From an uncultured Opitutaceae bacterium (lineage in GTDB: Bacteria; Verrucomicrobiota; Verrucomicrobiia; Opitutales; Opitutaceae): DNA of 47,082 nucleotides. The stretch lies in the NCBI GenBank assembly GCA_903862935.1, contig CAIOZY010000002.1, forward strand, positions 1 through 47,082, in the 5' to 3' direction. Made by a program: the position numbers and the translations under genes. How positions within the stretch are numbered: the stretch's first letter is position 1; every line of letters begins with the position of its first letter. The notes under the pieces are model-generated. The model saw only the letters and a program-made list of their open reading frames with translations, did not search any database and was not told where the DNA came from. This document shows positions 22,472-39,364 of this stretch, one piece after another.

Positions 22472-22528
22472 AGCCCGGCCCCTTTTCCCCCCTTAACCGA
22501 TACATTCCCCCCCCTGTCCCTCACGCGC

Positions 22529-23659
22529 ATGCTCAAGAAAACCCTCCTTACCGCCGCCGGCCTGGTTATCCTGCTGGGCGCCCTGGCCGGGATCAAGGCC
22601 CTCCAGATCACGACCCTGATCGCCCAGAACTCCCACTACGCGCCGGTCCCCGAACCGGTGACAACCGCCTCCGTCAGCAACGAGAGCTGGGAGCCCGTCC
22701 TGGACTCCGTGGGCTCCCTCACCGCCGTGCAGGGGGTCACTGTCACGGCCCAGCTCGACGGGAACGTGACCCGGATCTCTTTCGAACCCGGCAGCTCCGT
22801 GCGCGCCGGCGACCTGTTGGTCCAGCAGGACGTGTCCACGGAGGAGGCCCAGCTGCGCTCGGCCGAGGCCGCAGCCGAGCTGGCGCGGATCAACCTTGAG
22901 CGCACCCGCGAGCTGCTCGCCAAGGCGACCGTCTCGCAGTCGCAGTTCGACCAGGACAGCGCCGCCCACAAGCAGGCCCTGGCCCAGGCCGACACGATCC
23001 GCGCAGCGATTGCAAAGAAGACGATCCGGGCTCCCTTCTCGGGACGGCTCGGCATCCGCCTGGTGAACCTCGGGCAGACTCTGAGGGCGGGCGACCCGAT
23101 CGTCTCGCTCCAGGCGCTCGACCCGATCTACGCCGACTTCTACCTGCCGCAGCAGGACCTCCGAATGATCGCGCCGGGCCGCACCGTCCGCCTGACAAGC
23201 GACGCCTTCCCCGACCGTGTGGTCACCGGCCGAATCACCGCCATCAGCCCCGACGTGGACAGCGCTACCCGCAACGTCCGGGTCGAGGCGACCGTGGCCA
23301 ATTCCGACGAGGCCCTTCACCCGGGCATGTTCGTGCGGGTCGAGGTGATCCTTCCTGAGGCGAAGAAAGTGCTGGTCATCCCGGCCACCTCCATCTTGTA
23401 CGCCCCGTACGGGGACTCGGTCTTCGTCGTCACCGAGCACAAGGCCGCCGGCTCGGACAAGGCCCAGCACCTGCTCGAGCAGCGCTTTGTCCAGCTGGGC
23501 ATGAGCCGCGGCGACCTGGTCGCGGTCACCTCAGGGCTAAAGGCCGGCGAGGTCGTCGTCAGCTCGGGCGCCTTCAAGCTGCGCAAGGGCATGGCGGTCA
23601 CGGTCGACAACGCCCTGGCCCCCGACGCCCAGGTCGCGCCGAAGCCCAGCGACTCCTAA
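22529..23659 (+). CDS. RND efflux periplasmic adaptor (first copy)
   Basis: Membrane-fusion protein of 376 residues. An uncleaved-looking N-terminal anchor (TLLTAAGLVILLGALAGI) replaces the lipobox of the adaptor at 7878. It is followed by AVQGVTVTAQLDGNVTRISF (first lipoyl half), a coiled hairpin (about 95-150), TIRAPFSGRLGIRLVNLGQT (second half), and barrel domains beginning near LDPIYADFYLPQQDL. The ATG at 22529 is chosen because the anchor starts there; 24 open codons upstream are Pro-rich and unlike a signal. Its pump gene begins 4 bases after its stop. It resembles the adaptor at 26830 throughout. Confidence 0.9.
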   Translation: MLKKTLLTAAGLVILLGALAGIKALQITTLIAQNSHYAPVPEPVTTASVSNESWEPVLDSVGSLTAVQGVTVTAQLDGNVTRISFEPGSSVRAGDLLVQQDVSTEEAQLRSAEAAAELARINLERTRELLAKATVSQSQFDQDSAAHKQALAQADTIRAAIAKKTIRAPFSGRLGIRLVNLGQTLRAGDPIVSLQALDPIYADFYLPQQDLRMIAPGRTVRLTSDAFPDRVVTGRITAISPDVDSATRNVRVEATVANSDEALHPGMFVRVEVILPEAKKVLVIPATSILYAPYGDSVFVVTEHKAAGSDKAQHLLEQRFVQLGMSRGDLVAVTSGLKAGEVVVSSGAFKLRKGMAVTVDNALAPDAQVAPKPSDS

Positions 23660-23663
23660 GGCC

Positions 23664-26600
23664 ATGCGATTCACCGACCTGTTCATCCGCCGGCCCGTTC
23701 TGGCGATCGTCGTCAGCCTGGTCATCCTGATCGCCGGGCTCCAGGCGATCTTCACCCTGAACGTCCGTCAGTACCCCCGCAGCCAGAACGCCTCGATCAC
23801 CGTCACCACCGTCTACATCGGCGCGAGCGCCGACCTGGTGCGCGGCTTCGTCACGGTGCCCCTGGAGCGGGCGGTCGCCGCCGCCGACGGAATCGACTAC
23901 GTCCAGTCCCAGAGTTCGCAGGGGGTTTCGAAGATCACGGCCCGGCTGAAGCTCAACTACGACCCCAACAAGGCCCTCGCCGAGATCGGCTCCAAGGTCG
24001 ACAGCGTCCGCAACAACCTGCCCCGCGAGGCACAGATCCCGGCGCTGAGCATCGAGTCGGCCGACAGCGAGTTCGCGGCCGCCTACCTGAGCTTCAGCTC
24101 CGAACTACTCCAGCAAAACCAGATCACCGACTACCTCGTGCGGGCGGTGCAGCCCCGCCTGTCCGCGGTCGACGGAGTCCAGCGCGCCGACATCCTCGGG
24201 GCCCGCACCTTCGCGATGCGGATCTGGCTCAAGCCGGACAAGCTCGCCGCCTACGGGATAAGCCCGACCCAGGTGAGCGAGGCCCTCGCGGCCAACAACT
24301 ACCTGGCCGCCGTAGGGACGACCAAGGGGGCCCTGATCCAGGTGAACCTCACGGCCAACACCGACCTGCGATCGGTCGAGGAGTTCAGAAAGCTCGTCAT
24401 CCGCCAGCAAAACGGCGCAATCGTCCGTCTCCAGGACGTGGCCGACGTGGTGCTCGGCGCCGAGGACTACGACGCCGAGGTGAGGTTTTCCGGCGAGACC
24501 GCCGTCTTCATGGGCATCTTCGTGCTGCCCAACGCCAACTCCCTCGACGTTATCAAACGGGTGCGCGCCGAGATGGACGGGATCAGCAGCGACCTTCCAA
24601 CGGGAATCCAGGCCCATGTCGCCTACGACGCGACCAAGTACATCGACACGGCGATCAGCGAGGTTTTCCACACCCTGGTGGACACGCTGCTGATCGTGGT
24701 GGTGGTGATCTTCCTTTTCCTGGGCTCGATGCGCTCGGTGGTGGTGCCCATCGTGGCGATCCCTGTGTCGCTCGTAGGAGGCGTGTTCCTGATGCAGGCC
24801 TTTGGCTTCACGGTGAACCTGCTTACGCTCCTTGCGATCGTCCTTTCGGTGGGGCTCGTGGTCGACGACGCCATCGTTGTGGTCGAGAACGTCGAGCGCC
24901 ACCTGCGGGACGGCAAGACGCCGCTCGACGCCGCGCTCACGGGGGCCCGCGAACTGGTCGGCCCGCTCATTGCGATGACGGTCACCCTCGCAGCGGTGTA
25001 CGCCCCGATCGGACTGCAGGGCGGGCTCACCGGGACCCTCTTCCGCGAGTTCGCCTTCACGCTGGCCGGCGCGGTCATCATCTCCGGGGTGGTGGCGCTG
25101 ACCCTCTCCCCCATGATGGCGGCCGCGCTCCTGCGCCCCGACGAGGAGCAAAAGGGCCTGCCCCGGCGGATCGCGGTCGGTTTCGAGCGCCTGAAGGGTA
25201 TGTACGGCCGGGCCCTGGGGGCGGTCCTCGAGAACCGGGGCTACGTCTACGCGGTCTGGGGCACGGTGGGGCTGGCGGGGCTGCTGATGTTCAAGTTTCT
25301 GCCCGGGGAACTGGCCCCGGCCGAGGACCAGGGCGTCATCTTCGGCATCTCCGACGCCGCGGCCAACGCGACCGTCGAGCAGACGAGCCGCTTTTCGACG
25401 GCCATAAACAAGGCCTACTTCAGCGTCCCGGAGACCGACTTTGTCTTCCAGGTGGTCGAGCCGACCGGGGGCTTCGCCGGGATGGTCGTCAAGCCCTGGG
25501 ACGAGCGAAAGCGCAACATCTTCTCGATCCTGCCCGAGGTGCAGGGAAAGCTCCACGCGATCCCGGGGATCCGCATTTTCCCGGTCCTGCCCCCCCCGCT
25601 CCCCGGCGGCGGCACCTTCCCGGTCGAGTTCGTGATCTCGTCGACCGCCGATTTCGACCAGATCCTCCCGCTCGCCCACCAGCTCGCCGACAGCGCGGCC
25701 AAGAGCGGCCTGTTCGCATTTCCGCCGATCATCGACATGAAAGTCGACCAGCCGCAGTCCGAGATCGTGATCGACCGCGACAAGGTGGCCTCCCTCGGGC
25801 TTAACCTCTCGCAGATCGGAGCCGACGTGGCGGCCGCGACGGGCGGCAACTACGTCAACTGGTTCGACATCGCCGGGCGCAGTTACAAGGTGATCCCCCA
25901 GGTCAAGCGGACGAGCCGGCTGAACCCCGAGCAGCTCGGGAGCCTCTATGTCACGGGCCCGGGAGGCAAGCTCGTGCCCCTGAGCACCTTCGCCACGATC
26001 CGGAACTCCACGGTCCCGCGCTCCCTGAACCGCTTCCAGCAGCTGAACGCCGTGACGCTCAGCGGAGTCGCCATCCGGCCGCTCGACCAGGCCCTCTCCT
26101 TCCTGGAGGGCCAGGCGGCCCAGATCCTGCCCAAGGGCTACGTGATCGACTACACCGGAGAGTCCCGGCAGCTCCGCCGCGAGGGCGGCGACGCCAAGTT
26201 CTGGCAGATGATGGGGCTGGCCTTCACCCTCATCTTCCTGGTCCTGGCGGCCCAGTTCAACAGCTTCCGCGACCCGCTGATCATCCTGGGAGGCTCTGTC
26301 CCCCTGGCGATCTTCGGGGCGGCGATCTTCATGTTCCTGAAGATGCCGGGGATCCCCTTCTGGACGAACGGATGGACGACGACCTTCAACATCTACTCCC
26401 AGGTGGGCCTGGTGACCCTGGTCGGGCTGATCGCCAAGAACGGCATCCTGATCGTTGAGTTTGCCAACAAGCTCCAGCGGGAGGGCCGCTCAAAGCTTGA
26501 GGCCGTCCACGAGGCGGCGATGACGCGCCTGAGGCCTGTCCTGATGACCACGGTGGCGACCGTTGCGGGGCATTTCCCGCTCACGCTCGTCACCGGTGCC

Positions 26601-26774
26601 GGCGCGGCCGCCCGCAATTCGATCGGCCGGGTCCTCGTCGGGGGAATGTCCATAGGGACCGTATTCACGCTGTTCATCGTCCCGTGCGTGTATGTCCTTG
26701 TGGCAAAGGATCATGCACAGGAACTGGCCCGGGCCAAGGCGACCGCTCCGGCCGCCGCCCCGGAGCGTGCGTGA
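23664..26774 (+). CDS. RND efflux permease (first copy of the pair)
   Basis: Proton-driven exporter of 1036 residues, HAE1 family, of the MexW/MexI-like type. Start MRFTDLFIRRPVLAIVVSLV is the first membrane helix. D401/D402 in LVVDDAIVVVEN and K925 in LIAKNGILIVEF form the proton relay. FxGP-type features of E. coli AcrB are not needed for this assignment. It is separated from the preceding adaptor by 4 bases and followed 55 bases later by a second adaptor. Sequence segments such as LNVRQYP, YIGASADLVRGF and KADK-like substitutions parallel the pump at 27977, supporting duplication. Confidence 0.92.
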   Translation: MRFTDLFIRRPVLAIVVSLVILIAGLQAIFTLNVRQYPRSQNASITVTTVYIGASADLVRGFVTVPLERAVAAADGIDYVQSQSSQGVSKITARLKLNYDPNKALAEIGSKVDSVRNNLPREAQIPALSIESADSEFAAAYLSFSSELLQQNQITDYLVRAVQPRLSAVDGVQRADILGARTFAMRIWLKPDKLAAYGISPTQVSEALAANNYLAAVGTTKGALIQVNLTANTDLRSVEEFRKLVIRQQNGAIVRLQDVADVVLGAEDYDAEVRFSGETAVFMGIFVLPNANSLDVIKRVRAEMDGISSDLPTGIQAHVAYDATKYIDTAISEVFHTLVDTLLIVVVVIFLFLGSMRSVVVPIVAIPVSLVGGVFLMQAFGFTVNLLTLLAIVLSVGLVVDDAIVVVENVERHLRDGKTPLDAALTGARELVGPLIAMTVTLAAVYAPIGLQGGLTGTLFREFAFTLAGAVIISGVVALTLSPMMAAALLRPDEEQKGLPRRIAVGFERLKGMYGRALGAVLENRGYVYAVWGTVGLAGLLMFKFLPGELAPAEDQGVIFGISDAAANATVEQTSRFSTAINKAYFSVPETDFVFQVVEPTGGFAGMVVKPWDERKRNIFSILPEVQGKLHAIPGIRIFPVLPPPLPGGGTFPVEFVISSTADFDQILPLAHQLADSAAKSGLFAFPPIIDMKVDQPQSEIVIDRDKVASLGLNLSQIGADVAAATGGNYVNWFDIAGRSYKVIPQVKRTSRLNPEQLGSLYVTGPGGKLVPLSTFATIRNSTVPRSLNRFQQLNAVTLSGVAIRPLDQALSFLEGQAAQILPKGYVIDYTGESRQLRREGGDAKFWQMMGLAFTLIFLVLAAQFNSFRDPLIILGGSVPLAIFGAAIFMFLKMPGIPFWTNGWTTTFNIYSQVGLVTLVGLIAKNGILIVEFANKLQREGRSKLEAVHEAAMTRLRPVLMTTVATVAGHFPLTLVTGAGAAARNSIGRVLVGGMSIGTVFTLFIVPCVYVLVAKDHAQELARAKATAPAAAPERA

Positions 26775-26829
26775 TGCGATTGCGCTCCGGGAGTTTTTCC
26801 TTTTTGCTCCCCCGGACTATCTGCTCCCT

Positions 26830-27966
26830 ATGAAGCTCATGACCAAACGCATCCTAGGCATGGTGGCCGCCGTCTTTCTCATCGTCGGGGCCATCGCCGC
26901 CTACAAGGTCCAGTCGATCCGGGCGCTGCAGAGCCGGATGGCAGGGATGAAGCCCCCAGCGGCGATCGTCTCCACCACGCTCGCAAAGCGGACCTCGTGG
27001 GAGCGCCGGCTGCACGCGGTCGGGACCCTCGCCGCCGTCCAGGGGGTCACCGTGAGCAACGAACTTGCGGGAATCGTCGCTAAGATCGCCTTTGAGTCTG
27101 GCCAGCGGGTGGGCGAGGGGGAACTCCTCGTCCAGTTGGACACCTCGACCGACGAGGCCCAGCTGCGCGGCCTTGATGCCCAGGCCCAGCTTGCCGCGAT
27201 CACCCTCGAGCGGGCCCGGCAGCTGCGGGCGGCCAACACCAACTCCCAGGCCGATCTGGACAGCGCGGAGGCCCAGCAGCGCGCCGCGGTCGCCGCCGCC
27301 GACAACATCCGCGCGGTGATCGGCAAGAAGACAATCCGGTCGCCCTTCGCGGGGGTGCTCGGGATCCGGCTCGTTGACCTGGGGCAGTTCCTTCCCGCCG
27401 GCGGGTCGATCGCGGCCCTTCAGGCCCTAGACCCGATCTATGCCGAGTTTACGCTCCCGCAGCAGGCCGTCGGCCAGCTCAAGGCGGGCCAGGCCGTGCA
27501 CGTGGCGATCGACGCCTTCCCGGGCACGACCTTCTCGGGCACCATCAACGCCCTCAACTCCAAGGTGGACGAGGCGACCCGCAACATCACCGTCCAGGCG
27601 ACCCTCCGCAACCCGGACGGCAGGCTCATCCCGGGGATGTTCGCCTCGGTCGACGTCGTGCTTCCATCCCGCGACGACATGATCACGCTGCCGCAGACAG
27701 CGATTGTCTACAATCCGTACGGGAGCGCCGTGTACGTCGTCGAGTCGGTGCGCGACGAGGCGGGGACGGTGTCGCAGGTGGTCCGCCAGCATTTCGTGAC
27801 CCTCGGGGAAACCCGCGGAGACCAGGTCGCCGTCGTCAAGGGAGTCAACGCCGGGGAGGAGATCGTCACTGCCGGCCAGATCAAGCTCCGGAACGGCTCG
27901 CCGGTCCAGGTCAACAACGCGTCCGTGCCGCCCGACAACGCCGCGCCGACTCCGCCGAACACCTGA
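26830..27966 (+). CDS. RND efflux periplasmic adaptor (second copy)
   Basis: Membrane-fusion protein of 378 residues, again with an N-terminal membrane anchor (ILGMVAAVFLIVGAIAAYKV) and no lipobox. AVQGVTVSNELAGIVAKIAF and TIRSPFAGVLGIRLVDLGQF are the two lipoyl halves; LDPIYAEFTLPQQAVGQL starts the barrel. Segment by segment it parallels the adaptor at 22529. The ATG at 26830 opens on the anchor; a longer open frame reaching back into the preceding pump gene is rejected. The pump at 27977 follows after 10 bases. Confidence 0.9.
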   Translation: MKLMTKRILGMVAAVFLIVGAIAAYKVQSIRALQSRMAGMKPPAAIVSTTLAKRTSWERRLHAVGTLAAVQGVTVSNELAGIVAKIAFESGQRVGEGELLVQLDTSTDEAQLRGLDAQAQLAAITLERARQLRAANTNSQADLDSAEAQQRAAVAAADNIRAVIGKKTIRSPFAGVLGIRLVDLGQFLPAGGSIAALQALDPIYAEFTLPQQAVGQLKAGQAVHVAIDAFPGTTFSGTINALNSKVDEATRNITVQATLRNPDGRLIPGMFASVDVVLPSRDDMITLPQTAIVYNPYGSAVYVVESVRDEAGTVSQVVRQHFVTLGETRGDQVAVVKGVNAGEEIVTAGQIKLRNGSPVQVNNASVPPDNAAPTPPNT

Positions 27967-27976
27967 CGGCCGGTCC

Positions 27977-30900
27977 ATGAATTTCACCGACATCTTCATC
28001 AAGCGGCCGGTCTTGGCGACGGTCGTCAGCCTGCTGATCCTCTTCGTGGGGCTCAGGTCGATCTCGCTTTTGAACGTCCGGCAGTACCCGGTGAGCAACA
28101 GCACCGTCGTGACGGTCTCGACGATCTACACGGGGGCGAGCGCCGACCTGATCCAGGGCTTCATCACGACCCCGCTGGAGAAGCAGATCGCGAGCGCCGA
28201 TGGCATCGACTACATCGAGTCCAACAGCGCCTCGGGGGCGAGCGCGATCATCGTGCACCTGGTGCTCAACTACGACCCGAACGCCGCGATCGCGCAGATC
28301 ATCTCCAAGATCGACAAGGTCCGAAACCAGCTGCCTGCCGGGGCGCTGCCGCCGACGATCGACGTGCAGGTGGGCGAGTCGACGGCCGCCATGTACCTGA
28401 GCTTCTCCAGCGAGCAGCTCGACAGCAACCAGATCACCGACTACCTGACCCGGGTCGTCCAGCCAAAGCTCTCGGCGATCAGCGGGGTGCAGAGCGCCCA
28501 GGTGCTCGGGGCCCACGTCTTCGCGATGCGCATCTGGCTGAAGCCCGACCGGCTCGCCGCCTACGGCATCAGCCCCTCGCAGGTCAGCCAGGCGCTCGCC
28601 GCGAACAACGCGCTCGCTGCGGTCGGGGCGACCAAGGGGTCCTTGATCTCCATCAACCTGAACGCCGCGACCGACCTGCACACGGCGGATGAATTCCGGC
28701 AGCTGGTCGTCAAGCAGGCCAAGGGTGCCATCATCCGGCTGGGCGACGTCGCCGACGTGGAGCTCGGCTCCGAGAGCTACGACACGGAGGTCCGCTTCAA
28801 CGGCCAGAGCGCGACCTTCATCGGGATCAACATCCTGCCGACGGCAAACGCCCTGGACGTGATCGACGGGGTGAAGCGGGTTGTGCCCGAGATCACGGCG
28901 GCGCTGCCGGCGGGGCTGAAGCTGACGATCGTCTACGACTCGACGGCCTACATCCACAACGCGATCGACGAGGTGGTGAACACGCTCGTGGAGGCGCTCG
29001 CGATCGTGGTGATCGTCATCTTCCTGTTCCTCGGGTCCTTCCGCTCGGTCGTGATTCCGATCGTCGCCATGCCGCTGTCGCTCATCGGGGCCTGCTTCCT
29101 GATGCTGGCGATGGGCTTCACGATCAACCTGCTGACGCTGCTTGCGATGGTGCTCGCCGTGGGGTTGGTGGTCGACGACGCGATCGTCGTCGTCGAGAAC
29201 ATCCACCGCCACATGGAGGAGGGCATGCACGGCATGGAGGCCGCGCTTAAGGGGGCCCGCGAACTGGGCGGGCCGGTGGTCGCGATGACGATCACCCTGG
29301 CGGCCGTTTACGCGCCGATCGGATTCGAGGGAGGCCTAACGGGGACCCTCTTCAGGGAGTTCGCCTTCACGCTCGTCGGGGCGGTCATCATATCGGGGGT
29401 CGTCGCCCTGACGCTCTCCCCCATGATGTGCTCGCGCCTCCTGCGGCACGATCCGGACAAGCGCGGGTTCGCGGAATTCCTCGACCGGAGTTTCGACAAA
29501 CTGCGCGACCGCTACGAGCGGGTACTGTCCGGGGTCATGAAGACCTGGCCGGTGATGCTGATCATTCCGGTCGTGTCCCTGATCCTGATCGTGCCCTTCT
29601 ACACGATGACCAAGCAGGAGCTCGCCCCCAACGAAGACCAGGGGCTCATCGTCGCCAGGGCCTTCGGGGCCTCCAATGCGAACGTCGACCAGACCGCCTT
29701 CTACGGGGCACAGATGGAGAAGGTCTTCCGCTCCTTCCCCGAGACCGCGAACGTCTTCCAGGTCTTCGGGGCGATCTCGAGCAGCGCGGCGAGCGGAGTC
29801 GCCAACGCCGCGATCGGCGGCATGGTCTTCAAGCCGTGGGGCCAGCGCGAGCGGGGAACGGTCGAACTGCTCCCGGAGGTGACGGCCAAGCTCGGCACCG
29901 TAACCGGGTTCAAGACGCTCGCCTTCCTCAGGCCGCCCCTTCCCGGCGGCGGGGCCGGGGCGCCGGTCCAGTTTGTGATCCTGTCGACGGACACCCCGAT
30001 CCGCATGGCCCAGGTGGCCGACCAGCTCGTCTCCGGGGCGATGCGCAGCGGGCTCTTCAACTATGCCGACAGCGACCTGAAGCTCGACCAGCCCCGGGGA
30101 GACCTCGTGATCGACCGCAACAAGGCGGCGGCCATGGGCGTGAACATGCAGCAGGTCGCCAACGACGTCGGCTCCCTCCTGGGCGGGGGATACGTCAACT
30201 TCTTCAACATCCAGGGCAACAGCTACAAGGTGATCCCGCTCGTCGAGCGGGTCGAACGCCTCAACCCGCAGCAGCTGAATGACTACTACGTGAGCACGGG
30301 CTCCAGCTCGCTTGTCCCGCTTTCGACCTTCGCCTCGATCCGCACCGAGGTCCAGCCGCAGGCCCTGAACCACTTCCAGCAGCTGAACTCTGCGACGATC
30401 TCCCTCGTGCCGCGGCCCGGCGTCACCCAGTCCGACGCCCTGGAATACCTGCGAGGCCAGGCCGCCGCGGTCTTCCCCTCGGGCTACGGCTACGACTATG
30501 GAGGCCAGTCGAGGCAGTTCATCCAGGAGGGCAGCTCGCTCGTCCTGGCATTCGCCTTCGGCGCGATCATCATCTTCCTGGTCCTGGCAGCGCAGTTCGA
30601 AAGCTTCCGCGACCCGTTCATCATTCTGCTCGGGAGCGTCCCGATGACCCTGGTGGGGGCGCTGGCCTTCCTGTTCCTGGGGGCCTCGACGATCAACATC
30701 TACACCCAGGTCGGGTTCATCACCCTGGTGGGCCTGATCAGCAAGCACGGGATCTTGATCACGCAGTTTGCGAACCAGCTCCAGGACGAGGGCCGGAGCA
30801 AGATGGAGGCGATCGAGCACGCCGCCGGCGTCCGGCTTCGCCCGATCCTGATGACCACGGCGGCGATGGTGCTCGGCGTCGTCCCGCTGGTGGTCGCCTC

Positions 30901-31063
30901 CGGGGCCGGAGCGGCGAGCCGCTACGCCATCGGCATCGTGATCGTCACCGGCATGTCCGTCGGGACCCTCTTCACCCTGTTTGTTATCCCCTCCGTCTAC
31001 ATGCTGATCGCCCGCGATCGCTCCAAGGATAAAGCCCCCCCTTCACAACCCGCCCACGCATGA
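27977..31063 (+). CDS. RND efflux permease (second copy of the pair)
   Basis: Proton-driven exporter of 1028 residues. It starts MNFTDIFIKRPVLATVVSLL and carries LNVRQYPVSNSTVVTVSTIY, parallel to the pump at 23664. D400/D401 (LVVDDAIVVVEN) and K923 complete the proton relay; K923 is followed by His (SKHGILI) where the other three pumps of this window have Asn. The stop overlaps the start of the TolC-like gene by four bases (ATGA, 31060-31063), so this pump and the channel are probably translationally coupled. Confidence 0.92.
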   Translation: MNFTDIFIKRPVLATVVSLLILFVGLRSISLLNVRQYPVSNSTVVTVSTIYTGASADLIQGFITTPLEKQIASADGIDYIESNSASGASAIIVHLVLNYDPNAAIAQIISKIDKVRNQLPAGALPPTIDVQVGESTAAMYLSFSSEQLDSNQITDYLTRVVQPKLSAISGVQSAQVLGAHVFAMRIWLKPDRLAAYGISPSQVSQALAANNALAAVGATKGSLISINLNAATDLHTADEFRQLVVKQAKGAIIRLGDVADVELGSESYDTEVRFNGQSATFIGINILPTANALDVIDGVKRVVPEITAALPAGLKLTIVYDSTAYIHNAIDEVVNTLVEALAIVVIVIFLFLGSFRSVVIPIVAMPLSLIGACFLMLAMGFTINLLTLLAMVLAVGLVVDDAIVVVENIHRHMEEGMHGMEAALKGARELGGPVVAMTITLAAVYAPIGFEGGLTGTLFREFAFTLVGAVIISGVVALTLSPMMCSRLLRHDPDKRGFAEFLDRSFDKLRDRYERVLSGVMKTWPVMLIIPVVSLILIVPFYTMTKQELAPNEDQGLIVARAFGASNANVDQTAFYGAQMEKVFRSFPETANVFQVFGAISSSAASGVANAAIGGMVFKPWGQRERGTVELLPEVTAKLGTVTGFKTLAFLRPPLPGGGAGAPVQFVILSTDTPIRMAQVADQLVSGAMRSGLFNYADSDLKLDQPRGDLVIDRNKAAAMGVNMQQVANDVGSLLGGGYVNFFNIQGNSYKVIPLVERVERLNPQQLNDYYVSTGSSSLVPLSTFASIRTEVQPQALNHFQQLNSATISLVPRPGVTQSDALEYLRGQAAAVFPSGYGYDYGGQSRQFIQEGSSLVLAFAFGAIIIFLVLAAQFESFRDPFIILLGSVPMTLVGALAFLFLGASTINIYTQVGFITLVGLISKHGILITQFANQLQDEGRSKMEAIEHAAGVRLRPILMTTAAMVLGVVPLVVASGAGAASRYAIGIVIVTGMSVGTLFTLFVIPSVYMLIARDRSKDKAPPSQPAHA

Positions 31064-32397
31064 AAATCAGAGCGACTCTTGCCACCGCCCTTGCGGCCCT
31101 GGCCCTTTCCGGGGCCGTCCGCGCCCAGACCTCCGAGGGCGGCACCGCCACGCTGCCCGACAAGCTGGATCTGAAGTCCGCGATCCTCTACGCGCTGGAC
31201 CACAACTACACGATCCGCCAGGCCCGGGAGCAGATCCGCGTCCAGGAGGGAGTCATCCTCCAGGTCGAGTCCCAGCGCATCCCCAATGTCGTGGCGATCG
31301 GCCAGTACCAGAGGAACGCCTCCGACATCTCGAGCAGTTCCCCGCCTGAAACCTCGAGCTGGGCGGTGGAACTGAAGGCGACGCAGGCCCTGTACGCCGG
31401 CGGCGGGATCGATTCGTCGGTCAAGGGGGCACGGCTCGCCCGCGAGGCCGCGCTCTACGACCTGCAGGCGACGATCAATGCGGCCCTATTGGACGTGCGC
31501 ACGCGCTTCCTCGGCGTCCTTCTCGCCCGCGAGAAGGTCCGCGTCCAGGAGGACAACATCGAGCTCTACACCCGCCAGCTCAAGGATACCGAGAACCAGT
31601 TCCACGCGGGCACAGTCTCCAATTTCGAGGTTCTGCGCTCTGAGGTCTCGCTCGCCAACGCGCAACCCGACCTCATCACAGCCCGCAACAACTACCGCAT
31701 CGGGATCGAGCAGCTGAGGCAGGCACTCGGCGTTCCGGCGGCGCCCGCGGGCGTTCCCGTCCCGTTCCCTGAGGTCGTGGGCGCCCTGGACTTCACCCCG
31801 GAGACCTACGAGGCCGACTCGGCCCTCTCCGCCGCCCATGCGAACCGGCCCGAGCTGCTCCGGATCGCCAAGCTCCAGGAGTCCGGCGAGCAGGCGGTTG
31901 TTGTCGCCAAGTCTACCTATTATCCGAACCTCTCGGCCTTCGGGGCCTACGAGTGGGTCGGGGCAGGCCTGAAGTACACGAACGTCAACGAGAACGGCTG
32001 GCTCGTGGGGCTGCAGTCCTCCTGGTCGATATTCGACGGGCGGGCGACCGCGGGCCGCGTCCGCCAGGCCAGCTCCCAGCTGGAGCAGGCCAAGCTGACG
32101 TACGCCTCCGCCGAGCTCGGGGTCGAGGTCGAGGTGCGCCAGGCCCTCTCGTCTCTGCAGGAGGCCGCGGAACTGGTGGCGGCCAGCCGAAAGACCGTGG
32201 AGCAGGCCGACGAGGCGCTTCGCCTTGCCAACGCCCGTTACCACGCCGGCTCGGCCACGCAGCTTGATGTTCTCACCAGCCAGGTTTCGCTCACGCAGGC
32301 CCGGACGAACGTCCTGCAGGCGAGCTACAACTACACGGTCGCCCTCGCGTCTATGCGCAAGGCGGTCGGTCTCGGGGACGCCTTCATCGGGCGCTAA
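31060..32397 (+). CDS. TolC-family outer membrane efflux protein
   Basis: Outer-membrane channel of 445 residues that completes tripartite efflux. A signal peptide (TLATALAALALSGAVRAQ) is followed by two OEP repeats: the first around DLKSAILYALDHNYTIRQAR, the second around AHANRPELLRIAKLQESGEQ. Coiled-coil helices with a Gly/Ala-rich turn (LYAGGGIDSSVKGARLA) and a second YHAGSATQLDVLTSQVSLTQ segment show the internal duplication of the family. It is the only channel gene in the window, so it may serve all four pumps. Confidence 0.9.
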   Translation: MKIRATLATALAALALSGAVRAQTSEGGTATLPDKLDLKSAILYALDHNYTIRQAREQIRVQEGVILQVESQRIPNVVAIGQYQRNASDISSSSPPETSSWAVELKATQALYAGGGIDSSVKGARLAREAALYDLQATINAALLDVRTRFLGVLLAREKVRVQEDNIELYTRQLKDTENQFHAGTVSNFEVLRSEVSLANAQPDLITARNNYRIGIEQLRQALGVPAAPAGVPVPFPEVVGALDFTPETYEADSALSAAHANRPELLRIAKLQESGEQAVVVAKSTYYPNLSAFGAYEWVGAGLKYTNVNENGWLVGLQSSWSIFDGRATAGRVRQASSQLEQAKLTYASAELGVEVEVRQALSSLQEAAELVAASRKTVEQADEALRLANARYHAGSATQLDVLTSQVSLTQARTNVLQASYNYTVALASMRKAVGLGDAFIGR

Positions 32398-32406: not shown

Positions 32407-35400
32407 ATGACGCAGCGGCGGCTCGTCCTGACGTGCCTGGGGGTTGCCCTGGCCGCGGCGGCGGTCGCGGCGGCGCTTGTGCTCAGCCCGCCGGTCCAGA
32501 CCTGGGCGGTTCGCCGAGCCCTCGCGTCCCGGCGCGGCTGGGAAGGGACCTCCGTCGGGCGGGTGTCCGCCGGCCTGCGCTCCGTCACGCTCAATTCCGT
32601 CCGGATCGAGGCTGGGGGCGCGGTCCTGGACATCCCGCTGCTGGAGGCCGAGCTGCCGACGGTCCCCGCATTCTTTGGGGGGCGGATCGCGATCCGGCGG
32701 CTATCGGCCCGTGGCTGGACGCTCGACCTGAGCCGAGCCGGCCCCGCAACGGGACCCAAGCAGGCGTCGTACCGGGCCCTGCCGTCGGCGCGGGAGGCGG
32801 ATTTTCCGGGGATCATCGCCTCGGCATGGGCCGCCGAGGCGGCGGGGCAGGAGCAGCCCGTCCCCGCGTTTTCGGGCGTCCTCGCCCGGCTCCGGCTCCC
32901 CGTGGAGCTCTCGCTTGACCGCGTCGACCTCGACGGCGAGGTCGTCCTCCCCGCCCCGCCCGGAGCCGCGCGCGCACACGTGAGGATCGGGGGCGGAGGA
33001 ATCGCCCCGGGCAGTGCCGGCAGCTTCACCTTCGCGATCGCAGCGGACTTCGCCCCCGCCAAGGCGGCGGTGAGCGCCGTGGTAGCGGACGGCGTTCTCA
33101 GCGCGACGCTCGGCCCTGAGCGGACCTTCACCCGGGTCTCCGCGCGAATCAATGCGTCCGCGACCGGCCCCAAGTTTCCCCGCGGGGTCCGCCTGTCGGC
33201 CGATCTGGCCGCGTCCCGCGGGCCCTTGGGGGAAGTCTACACGGCGACCCTGGCTGGCGACACGCGCGAGCTCTTTGGCCTTCAGGCCGAGTTTTCGGGC
33301 ACAACCCGCCGTCTGGTGGGGTCCTGGAAGGTTGACCTAAGCGATGACGATGTGAACCCGTTCTGGCTCGGCCGGGCGCTGCCGCTTTTTGACGCCGTGG
33401 GCAAGGGCCGCTTCGACACGGAACTGGCTGCGGGGCAGACCCATGTCAGCGGGACGCTGAACCTCACTGCGGATAGGCTGACGGCGATCGGGCCCGAGCT
33501 TGCGGGGGTGGGCGGAGTGAAGCTCGCCGCCGACTTTGACCTCACCCAGCGCGGGGCTCTCCTGCGGGTAGACCACCTCAGGGCGACCCTGGCCGGGGCC
33601 CAGCCCGTCCTCACGGTCCAGGGCCTCCAGCCGTTCGCCTTCAACGCCGACACGGGCGAACTGCAGGTGGCGGACGCCTCGAGCGACGTCCTGGGAATCG
33701 TGTTGCAGGGGGTCCCTGTGGAGTGGGCCCAGCCGTTCTTTTCGGACACCTCGATGGGCGGCGGACCGCTCCGGGGCGAACTTGCGGCCTCCGCGGCGGC
33801 CGGGGGCCTGCACCTGCGCTCGAAGTCGCCGCTCACCCTGGCGAGCGCCTCCGTCTCGCATGCGGGCCGGCCGCTCGCCTCCGACCTGGGGCTCCGGGTC
33901 GATCTTTCGGCCGATGACACTCCCCAGGGCTGGCAGGTTGAATGCGCGGGCCAGATCCTCTCGCAGGGGCCGGCCCTGAGTTTTTCGGCCCGGTGCGGCC
34001 GGCTGGCGGGCCGGGACCAGCCGATGAGGGTCGCCGGGCACATGGAGGGCGACCTGGCCGCGCTGTCGGCCCAGCCCGCAGCCCGCTTTGGCGCAGCCCG
34101 GGCTGTCCCGGCCGGCCGGCCGGTCCTGATCCGCGGCAGGGTCGCGGCGGATTTCACAGGGGAGATCTCCGCCCACCGCCTGTTCCAGGCGAAGATCGAG
34201 GTCTCGGGTGTGGAGGCCGACCCGGCGCTGTCGGTCGAGACCATGCCGACGGTCGCCGCGGAGATTCGGGCCGACATCGGTCCGGACGGCCGCATGGCGA
34301 TCGCTGTTCCCCTCAGCCTGGAGAGGGCCGGACGCAAGTCGGATCTAGCGCTCGAGCTCACCGTGGAGAAGACCCCGGGCGGACTGGCCGTGGACGGCTC
34401 GGTCGCAAGCAGCCGGCTTTGCCTTGAGGACGCGAGGATCCTGGCGGCCCCGTGGGCCGGCGCTGGCCGGCCCGGCTCAGGGCCGGGCGCGGGATCAAGG
34501 GCCGCTCCGGTCCCGCCCGCTGCGGGTCTGTCCGGACAGGTTCTTGTCTCCTTGCGGGCGGTCGAAGGACCGGGGTGGACCGCAAGCGATCTCACCGCGA
34601 GATTGGTTGCCGCCCCGGGGCAGCTGCGGATCGAGGGCCTCAGGGCGGGTCTGTCCGACGGGAGCACGTGCCGGCTGGGCGCAACCGTCACCCCAGGACC
34701 CGCGGGACGTTGGGACGCTTATTCGGGTGACGTCACGGTCGAGAATTTCGACATGGGCCCGGTCCTCCGGGCCCTCGGGGGCGGCCCCCAGCCGATTCTG
34801 GAGGGCAGGTTCGACGCGACCGCGCAGATTTCCGGGACCGGTTTCGCCCCGGGCGCCCTTGAGGCCAGCCTTCAGGGCCGGGTATCCCTCAGCAGCCGGG
34901 GCGGGGTGTTCCGTGCGCTCCGGGCGGACATCGCCGAGGCGATCAAACAGTCCCCTTCGAAGCTTTCCGAGGCCCTGGGGACGGTGACCTCCCTGTTCGG
35001 CAAGAATAAGGAGGCCGAAAAATTCATCGACAAGCAGGGGCAGGTCGCCGTGCAGATCACCGAGTCGTTCCGCGAGGTCCACTACGACCAGCTGAGCGTC
35101 ACAGTGGAGCGCGGCGCCGACCGGAACATCCGGCTGTCAGAGTTTGCGCTCATTTCCCCGGAGGTCCGGCTCGGCGGGACCGGGACCGTGACGTACCAGG
35201 AGGGAACGCCGGTTGGGGCCCAGCCGCTGGACCTCACGCTGCAGGTCGGCGCGCGCGGGCGCACGGGCTCGCTGCTCAAGTCAGCGGGGCTGCTCGGGGA
35301 GTCGACCGATGACCTGGGGTACGCGGCGCTGGCGTCCCCGGTCCACCTCGGGGGCTCCCTGCGGGAGCCCGACCCCGGCCAATGGAGGGACCTGCTCGTC

Positions 35401-35457
35401 AAGGCGGCCCTGCGCAAGGCGGCCGGAAACCTCCTCGACAAGCTCCTCGGCAAGTAG
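32407..35457 (+). CDS. Large AsmA-like membrane-anchored protein
   Basis: Protein of 1016 residues with one N-terminal membrane helix (LVLTCLGVALAAAAVAAALVL) and a long periplasmic region rich in beta strands. The C-terminal third resembles the AsmA/TamB/YhdP group: a segment GRVSLSSRGGVFRALRADIA, a short helix, then ISPEVRLGGTGTVTYQEGTP and a closing LGGSLREP. Members of this group form lipid-conducting bridges between the membranes. The family call rests on overall pattern, not on a catalytic motif. It starts 9 bases after the TolC-like gene. The central 600 residues have no motif I recognise. Confidence 0.55.
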   Translation: MTQRRLVLTCLGVALAAAAVAAALVLSPPVQTWAVRRALASRRGWEGTSVGRVSAGLRSVTLNSVRIEAGGAVLDIPLLEAELPTVPAFFGGRIAIRRLSARGWTLDLSRAGPATGPKQASYRALPSAREADFPGIIASAWAAEAAGQEQPVPAFSGVLARLRLPVELSLDRVDLDGEVVLPAPPGAARAHVRIGGGGIAPGSAGSFTFAIAADFAPAKAAVSAVVADGVLSATLGPERTFTRVSARINASATGPKFPRGVRLSADLAASRGPLGEVYTATLAGDTRELFGLQAEFSGTTRRLVGSWKVDLSDDDVNPFWLGRALPLFDAVGKGRFDTELAAGQTHVSGTLNLTADRLTAIGPELAGVGGVKLAADFDLTQRGALLRVDHLRATLAGAQPVLTVQGLQPFAFNADTGELQVADASSDVLGIVLQGVPVEWAQPFFSDTSMGGGPLRGELAASAAAGGLHLRSKSPLTLASASVSHAGRPLASDLGLRVDLSADDTPQGWQVECAGQILSQGPALSFSARCGRLAGRDQPMRVAGHMEGDLAALSAQPAARFGAARAVPAGRPVLIRGRVAADFTGEISAHRLFQAKIEVSGVEADPALSVETMPTVAAEIRADIGPDGRMAIAVPLSLERAGRKSDLALELTVEKTPGGLAVDGSVASSRLCLEDARILAAPWAGAGRPGSGPGAGSRAAPVPPAAGLSGQVLVSLRAVEGPGWTASDLTARLVAAPGQLRIEGLRAGLSDGSTCRLGATVTPGPAGRWDAYSGDVTVENFDMGPVLRALGGGPQPILEGRFDATAQISGTGFAPGALEASLQGRVSLSSRGGVFRALRADIAEAIKQSPSKLSEALGTVTSLFGKNKEAEKFIDKQGQVAVQITESFREVHYDQLSVTVERGADRNIRLSEFALISPEVRLGGTGTVTYQEGTPVGAQPLDLTLQVGARGRTGSLLKSAGLLGESTDDLGYAALASPVHLGGSLREPDPGQWRDLLVKAALRKAAGNLLDKLLGK

Positions 35458-35500: not shown

Positions 35501-36505
35501 GTGATAGCTTCCGTTGCCTTTCGAAACTTCAAGGCCCTGCGGAGCACAAGCCTGAGGCTCTCTCCGTTCAACCTGGTGATCGGCCCGAACGGGAGCGGGA
35601 AGTCGAGCCTGATCCAGGCGGTGCTGCGGCTTCGCTCCGCGGCCCGCTCGGGCCAGGGCAAGCCGGGTCAGGGCGGTCTGCCGCTCATAGGGGGCCCCAG
35701 CGTCACCTTCCGCTTCACCTCGCCGAACGAGGCGGTCGAGGCCGAGATCTTCCACCAGGCCGGTCGAGCCGGCGACTCGCTGCGGGTCGCCTCCGAGTCG
35801 CCCGCTGCGTGGGAAGAGGTGAAGGCCGGGCTCGGGCGGGCGAGGGCCTTCCTGTTTGACCACGAGGCGATGGCGCTCCCCGCCCCGCGCTCCCAGGGCT
35901 CCGAGCTGGCGGCCAACGGTGCGAACCTCGCGGCCGTGCTGGCCCACCGCCGGGAGAGCGACCCCAAGGCCTATGCGAGGCTCGAGGCCGAGGCGCTGCG
36001 GCTGCTCCCGGAATTCACGGGCCTGATGCTTCGCGACGCTCCGGGGGGCACGGTTGAACTCGCCGGGGACTTCGGGGAGGGGGAGGGGAGCGTGAGCGCC
36101 GAGAACCTCGCACAGGGCAGCCTATACACGCTGGCGCTGCTCACCCTGGTCTCCGATCCGTCGCCCCCGTCGATTGTCTGCATTGAGGAGATCGACCGGG
36201 GAATCCACCCGCGGATGCTGCGCGAAATCCGCGATGCCCTGTACCGGCTGAGCTACCCGGAGCAGTTCGGCGAGCCGCACCCTCCCGTCCAGGTCATCGC
36301 CACTGGCTACTCACCGTACCTGCTGGACCTCTTCCGCGACCACCCCGACGAGGTCGTGATCGCGCAGAAGGAGGGCCGGGAGGCCAGGTTCGAGCACCTG
36401 TCCGACCGAGGGGACCTGGCGAAGCTTCTTAGGGAGGGGTCTCTGGGCGATCTGTGGTACAGCGGCATCCTCGGCGGGGTGCCGGAGGAAAAGCACCCCA
36501 GATGA
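35501..36505 (+). CDS. ABC/AAA-type ATPase, OLD/RecF-like, paired with a TOPRIM-like gene
   Basis: P-loop ATPase of 334 residues. The start FRNFKALRSTSLRLSPFNLV is the N-terminal strand of RecF/OLD-like proteins, followed by Walker A GPNGSGKS (28-35). The ABC-signature region is LAQGSLYTLALLTLV. Walker B is SIVCIEEIDRGIHPRML, with E229/E230 and the IHP motif typical of this group. The switch segment reads IATGYSPYLLDLF: Tyr270 sits where THSP-type histidine is expected. There is no coiled coil or SMC hinge. GTG 35501 is chosen as the first codon of the conserved N-terminus; the frame is open further upstream but overlaps the AsmA-like gene. The stop overlaps the next start (ATGA). Confidence 0.8.
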   Translation: MIASVAFRNFKALRSTSLRLSPFNLVIGPNGSGKSSLIQAVLRLRSAARSGQGKPGQGGLPLIGGPSVTFRFTSPNEAVEAEIFHQAGRAGDSLRVASESPAAWEEVKAGLGRARAFLFDHEAMALPAPRSQGSELAANGANLAAVLAHRRESDPKAYARLEAEALRLLPEFTGLMLRDAPGGTVELAGDFGEGEGSVSAENLAQGSLYTLALLTLVSDPSPPSIVCIEEIDRGIHPRMLREIRDALYRLSYPEQFGEPHPPVQVIATGYSPYLLDLFRDHPDEVVIAQKEGREARFEHLSDRGDLAKLLREGSLGDLWYSGILGGVPEEKHPR

Positions 36506-37134
36506 GGGTCGCGCTGCTGAGCGAGTCCCCGGCTGACGAGGCTGCGCTGCGCGTGCTGGTCGAGGCGATTCTCGGGTCGGCGCCCCAGTTCGCACCCGCG
36601 GGGCTGAGGGCCCGTGGCTGGCCCTCCGTGGCCCAGATTCTGCCTGCGGTGATCCGGCATATCCACTTCTCGACCGATGCGGACCTGCTCGCTGTGGTCG
36701 TCGACTCCGACGACTCGGTCGTGCACCGCCCGGAGCACGACCTTCCCGGGCACCACCACCCCTACTGCAGGATGTGCCAGCTGCGCGCGATCTTCCGCCA
36801 GACCTCCAAGCGGCTGCCGCCGGTTCGGGGCCGGACGGGCCCCCTGCGCGGGGTCGGGATCGCCGTTCCGGCGATCGAGGCGTGGTACCTGTGCGGCCGC
36901 GATCCGTCCGTGAGCGAGGCCGCCTGGATCGCTGGCCAGGAAACCGGACGCTTGCCTTACACACGAGCGGAACTTAAGTTACGGGTTTACGGAACAGACC
37001 GCCCGTCGCTACCCCACGAGATCCAACGCGCCCTAGCCGAGGTTGAACGTCACCGACGGGATCCCCGGCGGCTCGAAAACGACTTCCCCAACAGCTTCGC
37101 GCCGCTCGCGCGGGACCTGCGAGACACTCATTGA
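36502..37134 (+). CDS. TOPRIM-like protein, partner of the ATPase (putative nuclease)
   Basis: Protein of 210 residues, not recognised as a named family. MRVALLSESPADEAALRVLV resembles the first TOPRIM motif with E8, and LLAVVVDSDDSVV gives a DxDD motif (D68, D70, D71). VPAIEAWYL (E126) recalls the IE-x-W/F motif of DUF4276/OLD-type TOPRIM proteins. Between these lies a His/Cys cluster (H75, H79, H84-H86, C89, C92) that could bind zinc. The four-base overlap with the ATPase gene argues for a joint product, as in ATPase/TOPRIM defence pairs such as PARIS or OLD proteins. Nuclease activity is inference only. Confidence 0.6.
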   Translation: MRVALLSESPADEAALRVLVEAILGSAPQFAPAGLRARGWPSVAQILPAVIRHIHFSTDADLLAVVVDSDDSVVHRPEHDLPGHHHPYCRMCQLRAIFRQTSKRLPPVRGRTGPLRGVGIAVPAIEAWYLCGRDPSVSEAAWIAGQETGRLPYTRAELKLRVYGTDRPSLPHEIQRALAEVERHRRDPRRLENDFPNSFAPLARDLRDTH

Positions 37135-37138: not shown

Positions 37139-39364
37139 ATGCTGCTCAAAAGACGCTCCTACCTACCCCTCTGGGCGGAAGTCATCGCCGCGCCGATTGC
37201 GCGCCTGCTCTACCGCGTGCGCTCGCGCGGAGCTGAGGGAATCCCCGCTACCGGCGGCGCCCTGATCGTCGCCAACCACCTGTCCTACGTCGACGTGGCC
37301 GTCCTTCAGCTAGCCTGCCCGAGGCCGCTGCGCTTCCTGGGTCACCAGGACCTCCACGCCCACACCTTCTTCAGCTGGGTGTTCAAGATCGCCGGCGTCA
37401 TCCCCGTCACGGCCGACCAGCCCGAGGCGGGCGCCGAGCAGGCCGTCCGGGCGCTGAAGGCCGGGGAGCTGGTGTGCGCCTTCCCCGAGGGGGGCATCTC
37501 GCGCACGGGTCAGCTCATGCGCATCAAGCCCGGCTTCGACGCGATCGCCCGCGCTGCGGGGGTCCTGGTCATTCCGGCCGCGATCGACGGGCTCTGGGGC
37601 TCGGTTTTCTCCTTCGCCGAGAAGAAGTACATCTGGAAATCACCCCGGCTGATGCCGACAGCGGTCTTCGTCGCTTTCGGGCGCCCCATCCTTGCGGAGA
37701 AGGCCGACCTGGACACCACCCGCCAGGCCATGCTCAACCTCACGTCCGAGGCCTTCGAGGAGCGCCCCGTCCTGCGCCGCCACATCGGGCGGGAGGTCGT
37801 GCGGTCCCTCGCGAAGAGGCCCGGCCGGATCGTCGTCGTCGACTGCACCCAGGAGCGCAGGCCCGTCACGGCCGCCAAGCTGCTGGGGGCGGCGATCGCC
37901 CTGTCGCGCCACCTGCGAAAGACCGTGCCCGAGGGGCGGGTCGGGATCGTCCTGCCCCCCGGGGTCGGTGCCCTGATCGCCAACCTGTCCGTCATCTGCG
38001 CGGGCAAGGTTCCGGTGAACATGAACTTCACGGTCCACCGCGAGGCGATCGACGCGGCCTTCCGCCTCGGGGGCTTCAAGACGGTCATATCGGCTGAGGC
38101 CATGAAGGCCAAGCTGCCCAACTTTCCCTGGCCGGACACGACGGTCGACCTCAAGGAGGCTATCCTCGCGGCCGGCGGCCCGAGGGCGATCCTGCCGTGG
38201 ATCCTCGCGATCAAGTTCCTGCCCAACCAATGGATCCCGGCCCTGGTCGGTCTCCCCCGGCGCGGGGACCGAGCCGAGGCTGCCCTGCTCTTCACCAGCG
38301 GCAGCGCGGGCGAGCCCAAGGGAGTCGTCCTCACGCACCGCAACATCCTGGCCAACTGCGATCAGATCTCCTCGCTGTCGATCCTGCCGCCGACCTGCAT
38401 CATGCTCGGGTGCCTGCCGCTCTTCCACAGCTTCGGCTGCACTGCGACAATGTGGTACCCGCTGCTGCGCAGCTGCGGGCTGGTGACGGTCCCCAGCCCC
38501 CTCGACACGCGCAAGATCATCGACGCGATCCGGGACGAGAAGGTGACCGTGCTGGTGGGCGCGCCGACCTTTCTGCGGCCGATCCTCAAGAAGGCCGAGC
38601 CGAGCGAACTCAAGTCCCTGGGCGTAATCGCCTCGGGGGCCGAGAAGCTCCCCGAGGACCTCTACAAGAGCTTTCTGGAGATCTTCAACCTCGAGATTTT
38701 CGAGGGCTATGGGCTGACTGAGACCTCGCCCGTGACCAGCATCAACCAGCCCGACCCGCCGGTGACGACGGCCACGGCCAAGGTGCAGCTGGGCAAGAAG
38801 ACCGGCTCGGTCGGCAGGCTCATGCCCGGCATGACGGGCCGCATCGTCGACCCCGACACCCGGCAGGACCTGCCGCCGACCTCCTTCGGGGAGGTCTGGG
38901 TCAAGGGGGCGAACGTGTTCTCCGGCTACCTGCTGAACGAGGAAAAGACCCGGGCGGTCATCAAGGACGGCTGGTTTGCCACCGGGGACCTGGGCCATTT
39001 CGACGATGACGGCTTCCTGACGATCGCCGGGCGCCTGTCGCGCTTCTCGAAGATCGGCGGGGAGATGGTTCCCCTCGGGACGATCGAGGAGAAGATAAAC
39101 GAGCTGTTCGGCCTGGACCCGGCCGAGGGACCCTCGGTCGTGGTCGTCGGAATCCCCGACCCGACCAAGGGTGAGGCTCTGGCGCTGGTCACCTCCGTTC
39201 CCATCACCCCTGAGATGCTCCGCGAGAAGCTGGGCGGGGCCGGAATGCCCAACCTGTGGATCCCGAAGATCGTCGTCCGGGTGGACGCGATCCCCCACCT
39301 CGAGACCGGGAAACTCGACCTGTCCGGCTGCCGCAAGTGCGCGATCGCAGCCGGAAAGAACTAG
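37139..39364 (+). CDS. Aas-like acyltransferase / acyl-ACP synthetase fusion
   Basis: Two-domain protein of 741 residues. The N-terminal PlsC domain (about 1-215) shows NHLSYVD (H47, D52) and FPEGG (115-119). The C-terminal AMP-forming domain (about 245-741) shows FTSGSAGEPKG (385-395), GYGLTETSP (523-531), TGDLGHFDDDGFL and the catalytic lysine K725 in ETGKLDLSG. E. coli Aas has the same order in 719 residues and re-acylates lysophospholipids at the inner membrane. The ATG at 37139 is 4 bases after the TOPRIM-like gene. It ends 16 bases from the convergent kinase gene. Confidence 0.88.
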   Translation: MLLKRRSYLPLWAEVIAAPIARLLYRVRSRGAEGIPATGGALIVANHLSYVDVAVLQLACPRPLRFLGHQDLHAHTFFSWVFKIAGVIPVTADQPEAGAEQAVRALKAGELVCAFPEGGISRTGQLMRIKPGFDAIARAAGVLVIPAAIDGLWGSVFSFAEKKYIWKSPRLMPTAVFVAFGRPILAEKADLDTTRQAMLNLTSEAFEERPVLRRHIGREVVRSLAKRPGRIVVVDCTQERRPVTAAKLLGAAIALSRHLRKTVPEGRVGIVLPPGVGALIANLSVICAGKVPVNMNFTVHREAIDAAFRLGGFKTVISAEAMKAKLPNFPWPDTTVDLKEAILAAGGPRAILPWILAIKFLPNQWIPALVGLPRRGDRAEAALLFTSGSAGEPKGVVLTHRNILANCDQISSLSILPPTCIMLGCLPLFHSFGCTATMWYPLLRSCGLVTVPSPLDTRKIIDAIRDEKVTVLVGAPTFLRPILKKAEPSELKSLGVIASGAEKLPEDLYKSFLEIFNLEIFEGYGLTETSPVTSINQPDPPVTTATAKVQLGKKTGSVGRLMPGMTGRIVDPDTRQDLPPTSFGEVWVKGANVFSGYLLNEEKTRAVIKDGWFATGDLGHFDDDGFLTIAGRLSRFSKIGGEMVPLGTIEEKINELFGLDPAEGPSVVVVGIPDPTKGEALALVTSVPITPEMLREKLGGAGMPNLWIPKIVVRVDAIPHLETGKLDLSGCRKCAIAAGKN

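Follow-up and report, generated by a model that had tools for sequence, protein, structure and literature searches.

The 47,082-nucleotide stretch of Opitutaceae DNA analysed here (the window) harbors two overlapping genes, A and B, that constitute a real, conserved ATPase/TOPRIM-like module whose origin likely lies in defence. The best explanation of the pair, to which a probability of about 0.5 is given, is that A gates a TOPRIM-like nuclease, B, and that the two most likely serve as a PARIS-like abortive anti-phage or anti-element cassette, kept mainly vertically within the family Opitutaceae. An initial annotation of the window had put the pair forward as a candidate undescribed two-gene system. 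The pair is not undescribed in kind, since PADLOC lists ATPase and DUF4276-type pairs as HEC-01; the B family itself shows no Pfam match in any of 58 members. The positions of the genes, their motifs and the flanking genes are given in Table 1.

Table 1. Features of the A-B locus and its flanks in the window.
Feature	Coordinates	Strand	Basis or conservation
Upstream flank (context): AsmA-like protein	32407..35457	+	Pfam AsmA 2.4e-5, 23.8 bits, cut-off 29.8
Gene A: compact SMC/OLD-head-type ABC ATPase, 334 aa	35501..36505	+	Pfam, PADLOC, AlphaFold2 model
Walker A GPNGSGKS, A residues 28-35	35582..35605	+	K34 in 74/74
Walker B and D-loop IEEIDRGIHP, A residues 228-237	36182..36211	+	E229, D232, H236 in 74/74
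H-loop position of A, residue 270	36308..36310	+	Tyr here, His in 68/74 A proteins
ATGA overlap, A stop / B start	36502..36505	+	same -4 spacing in 56/99 loci with both genes
Gene B: putative TOPRIM-like nuclease of 210 aa, distantly related to HEC-01B/DUF4276	36502..37134	+	motifs, profiles, model
E8 of B, proposed catalytic Glu just after strand 1	36523..36525	+	58/58; aligns with HEC-01B E
D68-x-D70-D71 of B, proposed metal-binding acidic motif	36703..36714	+	58/58; aligns with HEC-01B DxD
H75, H79, H86, C89, C92 of B, possibly zinc-binding stretch	36724..36777	+	58/58 invariant
IEAW of B, residues 125-128	36874..36885	+	E126 invariant; aligns with HEC-01B LE(S/A)W
Downstream flank (context): Aas-type acyltransferase/acyl-ACP synthetase	37139..39364	+	AMP-binding 5.4e-63, Acyltransferase 1.8e-26

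The open reading frame of A runs from a GTG start at 35501 to a TGA stop at 36505, and that of B from an ATG start at 36502 to a TGA stop at 37134. The coordinates of both genes, their ATGA overlap and the length of B were correct to the base in the initial annotation, and the motifs it had named in the two proteins all lie where it placed them, their key residues being conserved throughout the 74 A proteins (K34, E229) and the 58 B proteins (E8, D68, D70, D71, E126). Sequence analysis of A revealed an AAA_21 domain (Pfam, E 6.7e-23). Its best PADLOC match was HEC-01A (PDLC04177, E 2.6e-34), with PDC-M07A (2e-26) and AriA (1.4e-20) as the runners-up. Among the 74 A proteins, window copy included, G28, P29, S32, G33 and K34 of the Walker A motif were unvarying, and K34, E229, D232 and H236 were each found in all 74. 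At 36305-36310, the window copy reads TGYSP, while 68 of the 74 A proteins carry the H-loop His, usually as TTHSP; the His is missing from five further copies besides that of the window. Judged from this substitution, the window copy may hydrolyse ATP poorly, and the Tyr at the H-loop weakens the best explanation of the pair.

Tertiary structure prediction of A with AlphaFold2 gave a model with a pLDDT of 93.7, for which Foldseek found 196 PDB matches at E ≤ 0.001. The nearest solved structure was PtuA of the Septu/retron systems (9e90_C, Z 18.7, rmsd 4.7 over 283), followed by SMC and Rad50 heads, OLD (6p74, Z 16.5) and AriA (8v46_B, Z 16.4). The predicted structure shows A to have the fold of PtuA, OLD, AriA and the SMC heads. 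The Septu partner PtuB is an HNH nuclease (HNH also occurs in the PDB titles matched), unlike the TOPRIM-like B.

TOPRIM nucleases carry a conserved Glu after strand 1 and a DxD motif after a later strand. In the alignment of 58 B proteins, window copy included, E8, D12, E13, D68, D70, D71 and E126 were each present in every member. The structural model of B (pLDDT 87.2, pTM 0.83), which is composed of alternating strands and helices, has E8 directly following strand 2-7 and D68 closing strand 62-68, so that the TOPRIM pattern of E8, D68 and D70, invariant and at strand ends, is found in B and these three may be regarded as putative catalytic residues. The invariant H-H-H-C-C stretch sits between D71 and the following long helix and has no counterpart in an aligned set of six HEC-01B proteins; zinc binding by it is a guess from the residue pattern.

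No family was found for the window copy of B in Pfam and no match in NCBIfam, and PF14103 (DUF4276) was matched by 0/58 members even at E ≤ 1. In PADLOC, at E ≤ 1, 28 of the 58 members matched HEC-01B (PDLC04202, best 1.6e-5), 18 matched PDLC04205 and 6 matched mad4; the window copy itself matched PDLC04202 at E 0.037, below significance. For comparison, six HEC-01B proteins were taken from five genomes that belong to the same phylum but to other families, all six lying above the Pfam DUF4276 cut-off. An hhalign comparison of 67 B proteins with these six gave a score of 40.3 (E 2.2e-5, probability 76), against 20.2 for the best of 100 column shuffles and 14.0 for the reversed control, and in the alignment E8, D68/D70 and E126 of B meet the E, DxD and LE(S/A)W of HEC-01B. 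The HEC-01B set in turn matched seven DUF4276-type proteins with a probability of 96.6 in a profile comparison. A direct hhalign comparison of B with the same seven proteins was not significant, and a direct profile link was dropped in favour of the route via HEC-01B. Since B matches HEC-01B and HEC-01B matches DUF4276, HEC-01B is the link by which B, as a distant branch, is connected to DUF4276.

The fold of B was less decisive. No sequence relatives of B were found in the PDB at E ≤ 10, and Foldseek gave no PDB match for its model at E ≤ 0.001, the PARIS entries appearing weakly at rank 20 (E 0.13) and rank 46 (E 0.27). With VIA-align, the model matched 2p62_A (Z 8.2 over 165), the C-terminal TOPRIM region of Burkholderia OLD (6nk8_A, Z 7.8, rmsd 4.2, 155 residues) and Xanthomonas OLD (6njv 7.3, 6njx 7.1, 6njw 7.0). 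Unrelated folds scored on a par with OLD: Argonaute MID at Z 8.1 (over 113) and lumazine synthases at about 6.3-7.6. The predicted fold hence agrees with TOPRIM rather than proving it, and the case stands on motif plus profile. The structural check that the initial annotation had suggested for B came out in between: OLD TOPRIM regions were reached and PARIS only weakly, and a fold lacking a TOPRIM core, which would have spoken against the proposal, was not clearly seen. Its reading of the two genes as an ATPase and a TOPRIM-like protein is borne out by the motifs, the HEC-01B profile and the fold of A, and is qualified by the tie of the OLD matches of B with unrelated folds.

The nuclease reading of B is weakened by the missing Foldseek PDB match, the tie with unrelated folds and the missing direct DUF4276 match. 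It is conceivable that B is a Rossmann-type, possibly zinc-binding, sensor or structural partner of A and not a nuclease at all, in keeping with the tie of the OLD matches with lumazine synthase and Argonaute MID, with the want of a DUF4276 match in Pfam and with invariant His and Cys residues beyond what a TOPRIM needs. This is considered improbable: the aligned B proteins never vary at the acidic positions that a TOPRIM site calls for, and it is at these positions that B lines up with the HEC-01B profile.

Among the known systems, A-B comes closest to HEC-01, which is entered in PADLOC-DB as a Hma-embedded candidate consisting of ATPase and DUF4276-type pairs with the models HEC-01A and HEC-01B. 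PMC12988326 is among the papers matched for HEC, PDC-M07 and Hma-embedded systems. The term HEC was absent from the main text of two PADLOC papers, and a search of a collection of open papers by the word DUF4276 found no paper under it. As in A-B, HEC-01 has the ATPase upstream and a DUF4276-type gene of about 190-213 aa just downstream, an E...DxD...ExW layout, and an ATPase C-terminal end that is similar by eye. A has an HEC-01 ATPase as its best PADLOC match (by E value, PADLOC system cut-offs aside) and lies directly upstream of B. In contrast, the HEC-01 ATPases are 392-409 aa long in six HEC-01-type loci, as against 334 aa in A; B falls below the DUF4276 model and has the extra invariant His/Cys stretch; and A-B is largely vertical and found in one family. 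A-B can be described as a compact relative of the DUF4276 pairs. The term compact relative had been used in the initial annotation with anti-phage systems in mind; the kin of the pair are indeed candidate defence pairs, and its largely vertical descent within one family does not sit easily with that view.

The likeness to PARIS lies in A, which resembles AriA in both the PADLOC and the structural comparison, and in the layout. The effector type of AriB is DUF4435, and no AriB model was present among the 10 PADLOC families matched by the 58 B members at E ≤ 1. The placing of ATPase and TOPRIM on separate genes, which defines PARIS or OLD class 4 in the excerpt cited (PMC10568477), is shared by A-B subject to B being a TOPRIM. 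OLD nucleases and GajA of Gabija contain the same two domain types in one chain rather than in two proteins, and the ABC ATPase and TOPRIM domains of the OLD family are described in the same excerpt as acting in concert in many defence systems (PMC10568477). Resemblance to MADS was slight: the MAD3 match of A (1.7e-18) falls far below the cut-off (67 vs 420 bits), and mad4 is matched weakly by 6/58 B members. MADS is a multi-gene cluster with methylation genes, and no DNA methyltransferase or protein kinase family was found by Pfam among the 16 other window ORFs scanned. The same collection of open papers yielded no relevant paper on MADS.

A and B occur together with high regularity. Of the 101 loci that contain B, 99 have an A match upstream in the same orientation, at a spacing of -4 to 266 nt (-4 in 56), in a set in which some genomes were reached twice and the start codons of B were chosen by script. 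Out of 252 family genomes, 164 contained B and 163 contained A, with both in 161 and neither in 86; adjacency was checked for part of the 161. The three genomes with B only are G325 (a weak match in a 74% complete genome), G398 (84% complete) and G413 (590 contigs). In the two genomes with A only (G412, G513), the fetched locus ends at the A match, so that a contig end is likely there. The co-occurrence survey suggested by the initial annotation has thus upheld the pairing, and homologues of B regularly lacking the ATPase were not seen. An A-like ATPase was also located upstream of 20 of 22 DUF4276 matches in the phylum sample (our own count; 3 of the 22 are below the cut-off). In two loci from other families of the phylum (L144, L145), DUF4276 matches adjoin A-like ATPases with internal stops, which suggests decayed ATPase-DUF4276 pairs outside Opitutaceae. 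In one further genome, A and B are both full length and lie on separate contigs (L069, where no A adjoins B, and L184), an apparent split of the pair.

Such pairing could also be that of an addiction-type selfish element, in which a toxic nuclease B is held in check by A and the pair is kept because loss of A alone kills the host, with no protection from phage. A and B are rarely apart, the A matches of the two A-only genomes stop at an apparent contig end, and the genome with the split pair keeps both genes, all as this idea would have it. It is nevertheless quite unlikely: locus L042, whose coordinates are those of G413, has B with no A upstream and only weak ATPase matches elsewhere in a fragmented assembly, a possible case of B without A, and neither mobility genes among the window proteins scanned nor boundary repeats were found.

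In the window, the AsmA-like gene stops at 35457, 43 nt ahead of A, and the ATG of Aas at 37139 lies 4 nt past the stop of B; owing to these short gaps, the pair is likely to be co-transcribed with its flanks, as read from the gene spacing. Aas lies downstream of B on the same strand in 77/101 loci, and the full order OEP-AsmA-A-B-Aas was found in 23/101, many loci ending at contig ends; in others, A is preceded by different genes, or Aas sits on the opposite strand. In three loci (L065, L085, L091), the Aas ORF downstream of B is 1147 aa long; that of L065 has an N-terminus that is MFS-like by eye and resembles a fused LplT-Aas. Further upstream (22457-32397), the window encodes a HlyD-type adaptor and an AcrB-type RND pump, in that order, twice over, and then an outer membrane efflux protein. 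A 577-aa ORF with a RecF/RecN/SMC N-terminal domain (4.1e-14) at 15280-17013 is, by its domain match, a second SMC-type ATPase of the window.

Both genes were absent from all 12 other genomes of the genus, where AsmA is followed directly by Aas (12/12). The distance from the AsmA stop to the nominal Aas start is 12-135 nt in these congeners vs 1681 nt in the window. In phylogenetic trees, the window OEP groups with the seven congeners having a complete OEP (support 1.0), the window AsmA with 10/12 congeners (support 0.99; sister to one at 0.95), and the window Aas with 12/12 (support 0.83), the nearest Aas by distance belonging to other genera. As all three genes group with congeners, the flanks of the pair look native. 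The 12 congeners have two AsmA-like matches each to the window AsmA (E ≤ 1e-40), and the window genome has one. The RpoB tree places the window genome beside a pair-less congener, with a second pair-less congener outside both. From this placement, the genus has seen either repeated loss of the pair or its return to the same site, for which recombination through the flanks is a possible route; no repeats marking an insertion were found across the A-B boundaries and no mobility genes among the window proteins scanned. The clean presence or absence between AsmA and Aas fits an accessory cassette.

Defence systems are usually horizontally spread and clustered. The initial annotation had placed the pair outside a defence island, and PADLOC gave no convincing defence match among 90 flanking proteins. 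The 90 were hand-picked from the 133 ORFs of ≤700 aa among 143 obtained by a greedy rule in high-GC DNA, leaving out ORFs that overlap Aas, AsmA, OEP, RND and similar genes, and some of them are possibly spurious. Six matches each to mad3, mad8 and AriA are attributed, as a group rather than from scans protein by protein, to the six ABC-transporter-like ATPases that a P-loop listing showed among the 90. Two CARF matches (best 2.6e-6) and one ATPase-Toprim match (9.5e-6) were also listed; the survey for nearby defence genes that had been suggested returned matches of which none convinces.

In the samples taken, the pair was found in one family, with one weak partial match outside it. In a class-level sample of 384 genomes, B was found in 29, all of them Opitutaceae (38 genomes of the family were drawn), and in a phylum-level sample of 288 genomes, in 22/25 of the family plus this one match elsewhere. 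It (G043/L023; E 2.6e-4, 27% over residues 78-196) lies outside the class and so outside the reach of the class-wide profile search, and was tentatively taken as chance, the B motifs not being seen by eye in any ORF listed at that locus. No B was found in viral contigs and plasmids. Among the best 80 of 111 relatives in GTDB genomes, the titles name Opitutaceae, Opitutae/Opitutia or wider Verrucomicrobiota, and one reads 'bacterium'. A cultured carrier of the pair is Geminisphaera colitermitum TAV2 (L088).

Within the family, B follows RpoB. Distances between B proteins correlated with RpoB distances at r 0.79 (maximum of 1000 permutations 0.28; 22 genomes), and those between A proteins at r 0.67 (permutation maximum 0.46; 22 genomes). 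RpoB frames were picked by a short RpoB motif and found in 28/30 genomes, and the correlation was computed for the 22 of these genomes that carry both A and B. The pair is mostly inherited vertically. The median dN/dS was 0.159 for B (59 pairs giving values out of the first 60 tried of 108 candidates), 0.182 for A (51 pairs) and 0.200 for Aas (39 pairs), and B is under strong purifying selection. Mean pairwise identity was 69.9% for B, 65.2% for Aas and 55.8% for A in sets of 54 sequences (53 loci and the window; no stops, minimum lengths 300 aa for A, 180 for B and 600 for Aas). The defence reading is weakened by B following RpoB, by its confinement to one family and by the lack of convincing defence neighbours, and again by B being more conserved than Aas and A.

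These observations give room to a domesticated housekeeping pair, as the initial annotation had also considered, with a role in chromosome or RNA processing or in control of the adjoining lipid/envelope operon, in the manner of Cran1 of the Sulfolobales. Cran1 has both domains in one protein, where A-B has two. It is archaeal and cannot be deleted, whereas about one in three family genomes lacks A-B. Like A-B, it is a vertical, lineage-restricted OLD-type module studied outside defence; in the excerpt cited, it is vertically inherited with a cell-cycle role, and the non-defence study was prompted by its gene tree following the species tree (PMC12796447). Besides this precedent, the mostly vertical inheritance, the restriction to the family in the samples taken, the frequent downstream Aas, only 4 nt from B in the window, the strong purifying selection on B and the lack of convincing defence neighbours are all in line with a housekeeping role. 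It is a serious but less likely alternative, since neither gene is present in 86/252 family genomes, the pair is absent from 12/12 congeners, and the closest kin of A-B are candidate defence pairs. With absences from about a third of the family genomes and from the 12 congeners, the pair is not generally essential. What had been suggested as a conserved housekeeping pair is accordingly matched by largely vertical descent within one family and weakened by these absences.

As a PARIS-like cassette, the reading preferred here, A and B would act as one two-component machine, in which A, as an SMC/OLD-head ATPase, would form dimers or oligomers with ATP and keep hold of B. B would be a two-metal TOPRIM-like nuclease with its putative active site at E8 and D68/D70/D71 (and E126). 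PARIS is the closest system with an understood mechanism: AriA holds AriB until it is released in response to a phage protein, and tRNA is cut by dimers of AriB through two-metal catalysis, as set out in the excerpt cited (PMC12409363). By analogy, a trigger sensed by A would free or activate B, which would then cut nucleic acid, with tRNA as the target in the manner of AriB or DNA in that of OLD and Gabija, and the cleavage would bring about a growth stop or the destruction of the invading DNA. Opitutaceae would have kept the cassette mainly through vertical descent, with clean absences.

It may also be, although this is rather doubtful, that a lineage-specific pair of defence ancestry, its nuclease bearing an added invariant His/Cys element that possibly binds zinc, became part of an envelope/lipid operon in Opitutaceae and has since taken on a cellular job; if true, it would be a bacterial two-protein counterpart of the archaeal Cran1. 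Modules that combine an ATPase with a TOPRIM are known chiefly as immune systems moving between genomes. Because A-B largely tracks the species tree, is more conserved than Aas and either occupies or is cleanly missing from the interval between one and the same pair of genes, it lends itself as a natural test case for how these modules become settled in a lineage, and for whether they stay immune or turn cellular.
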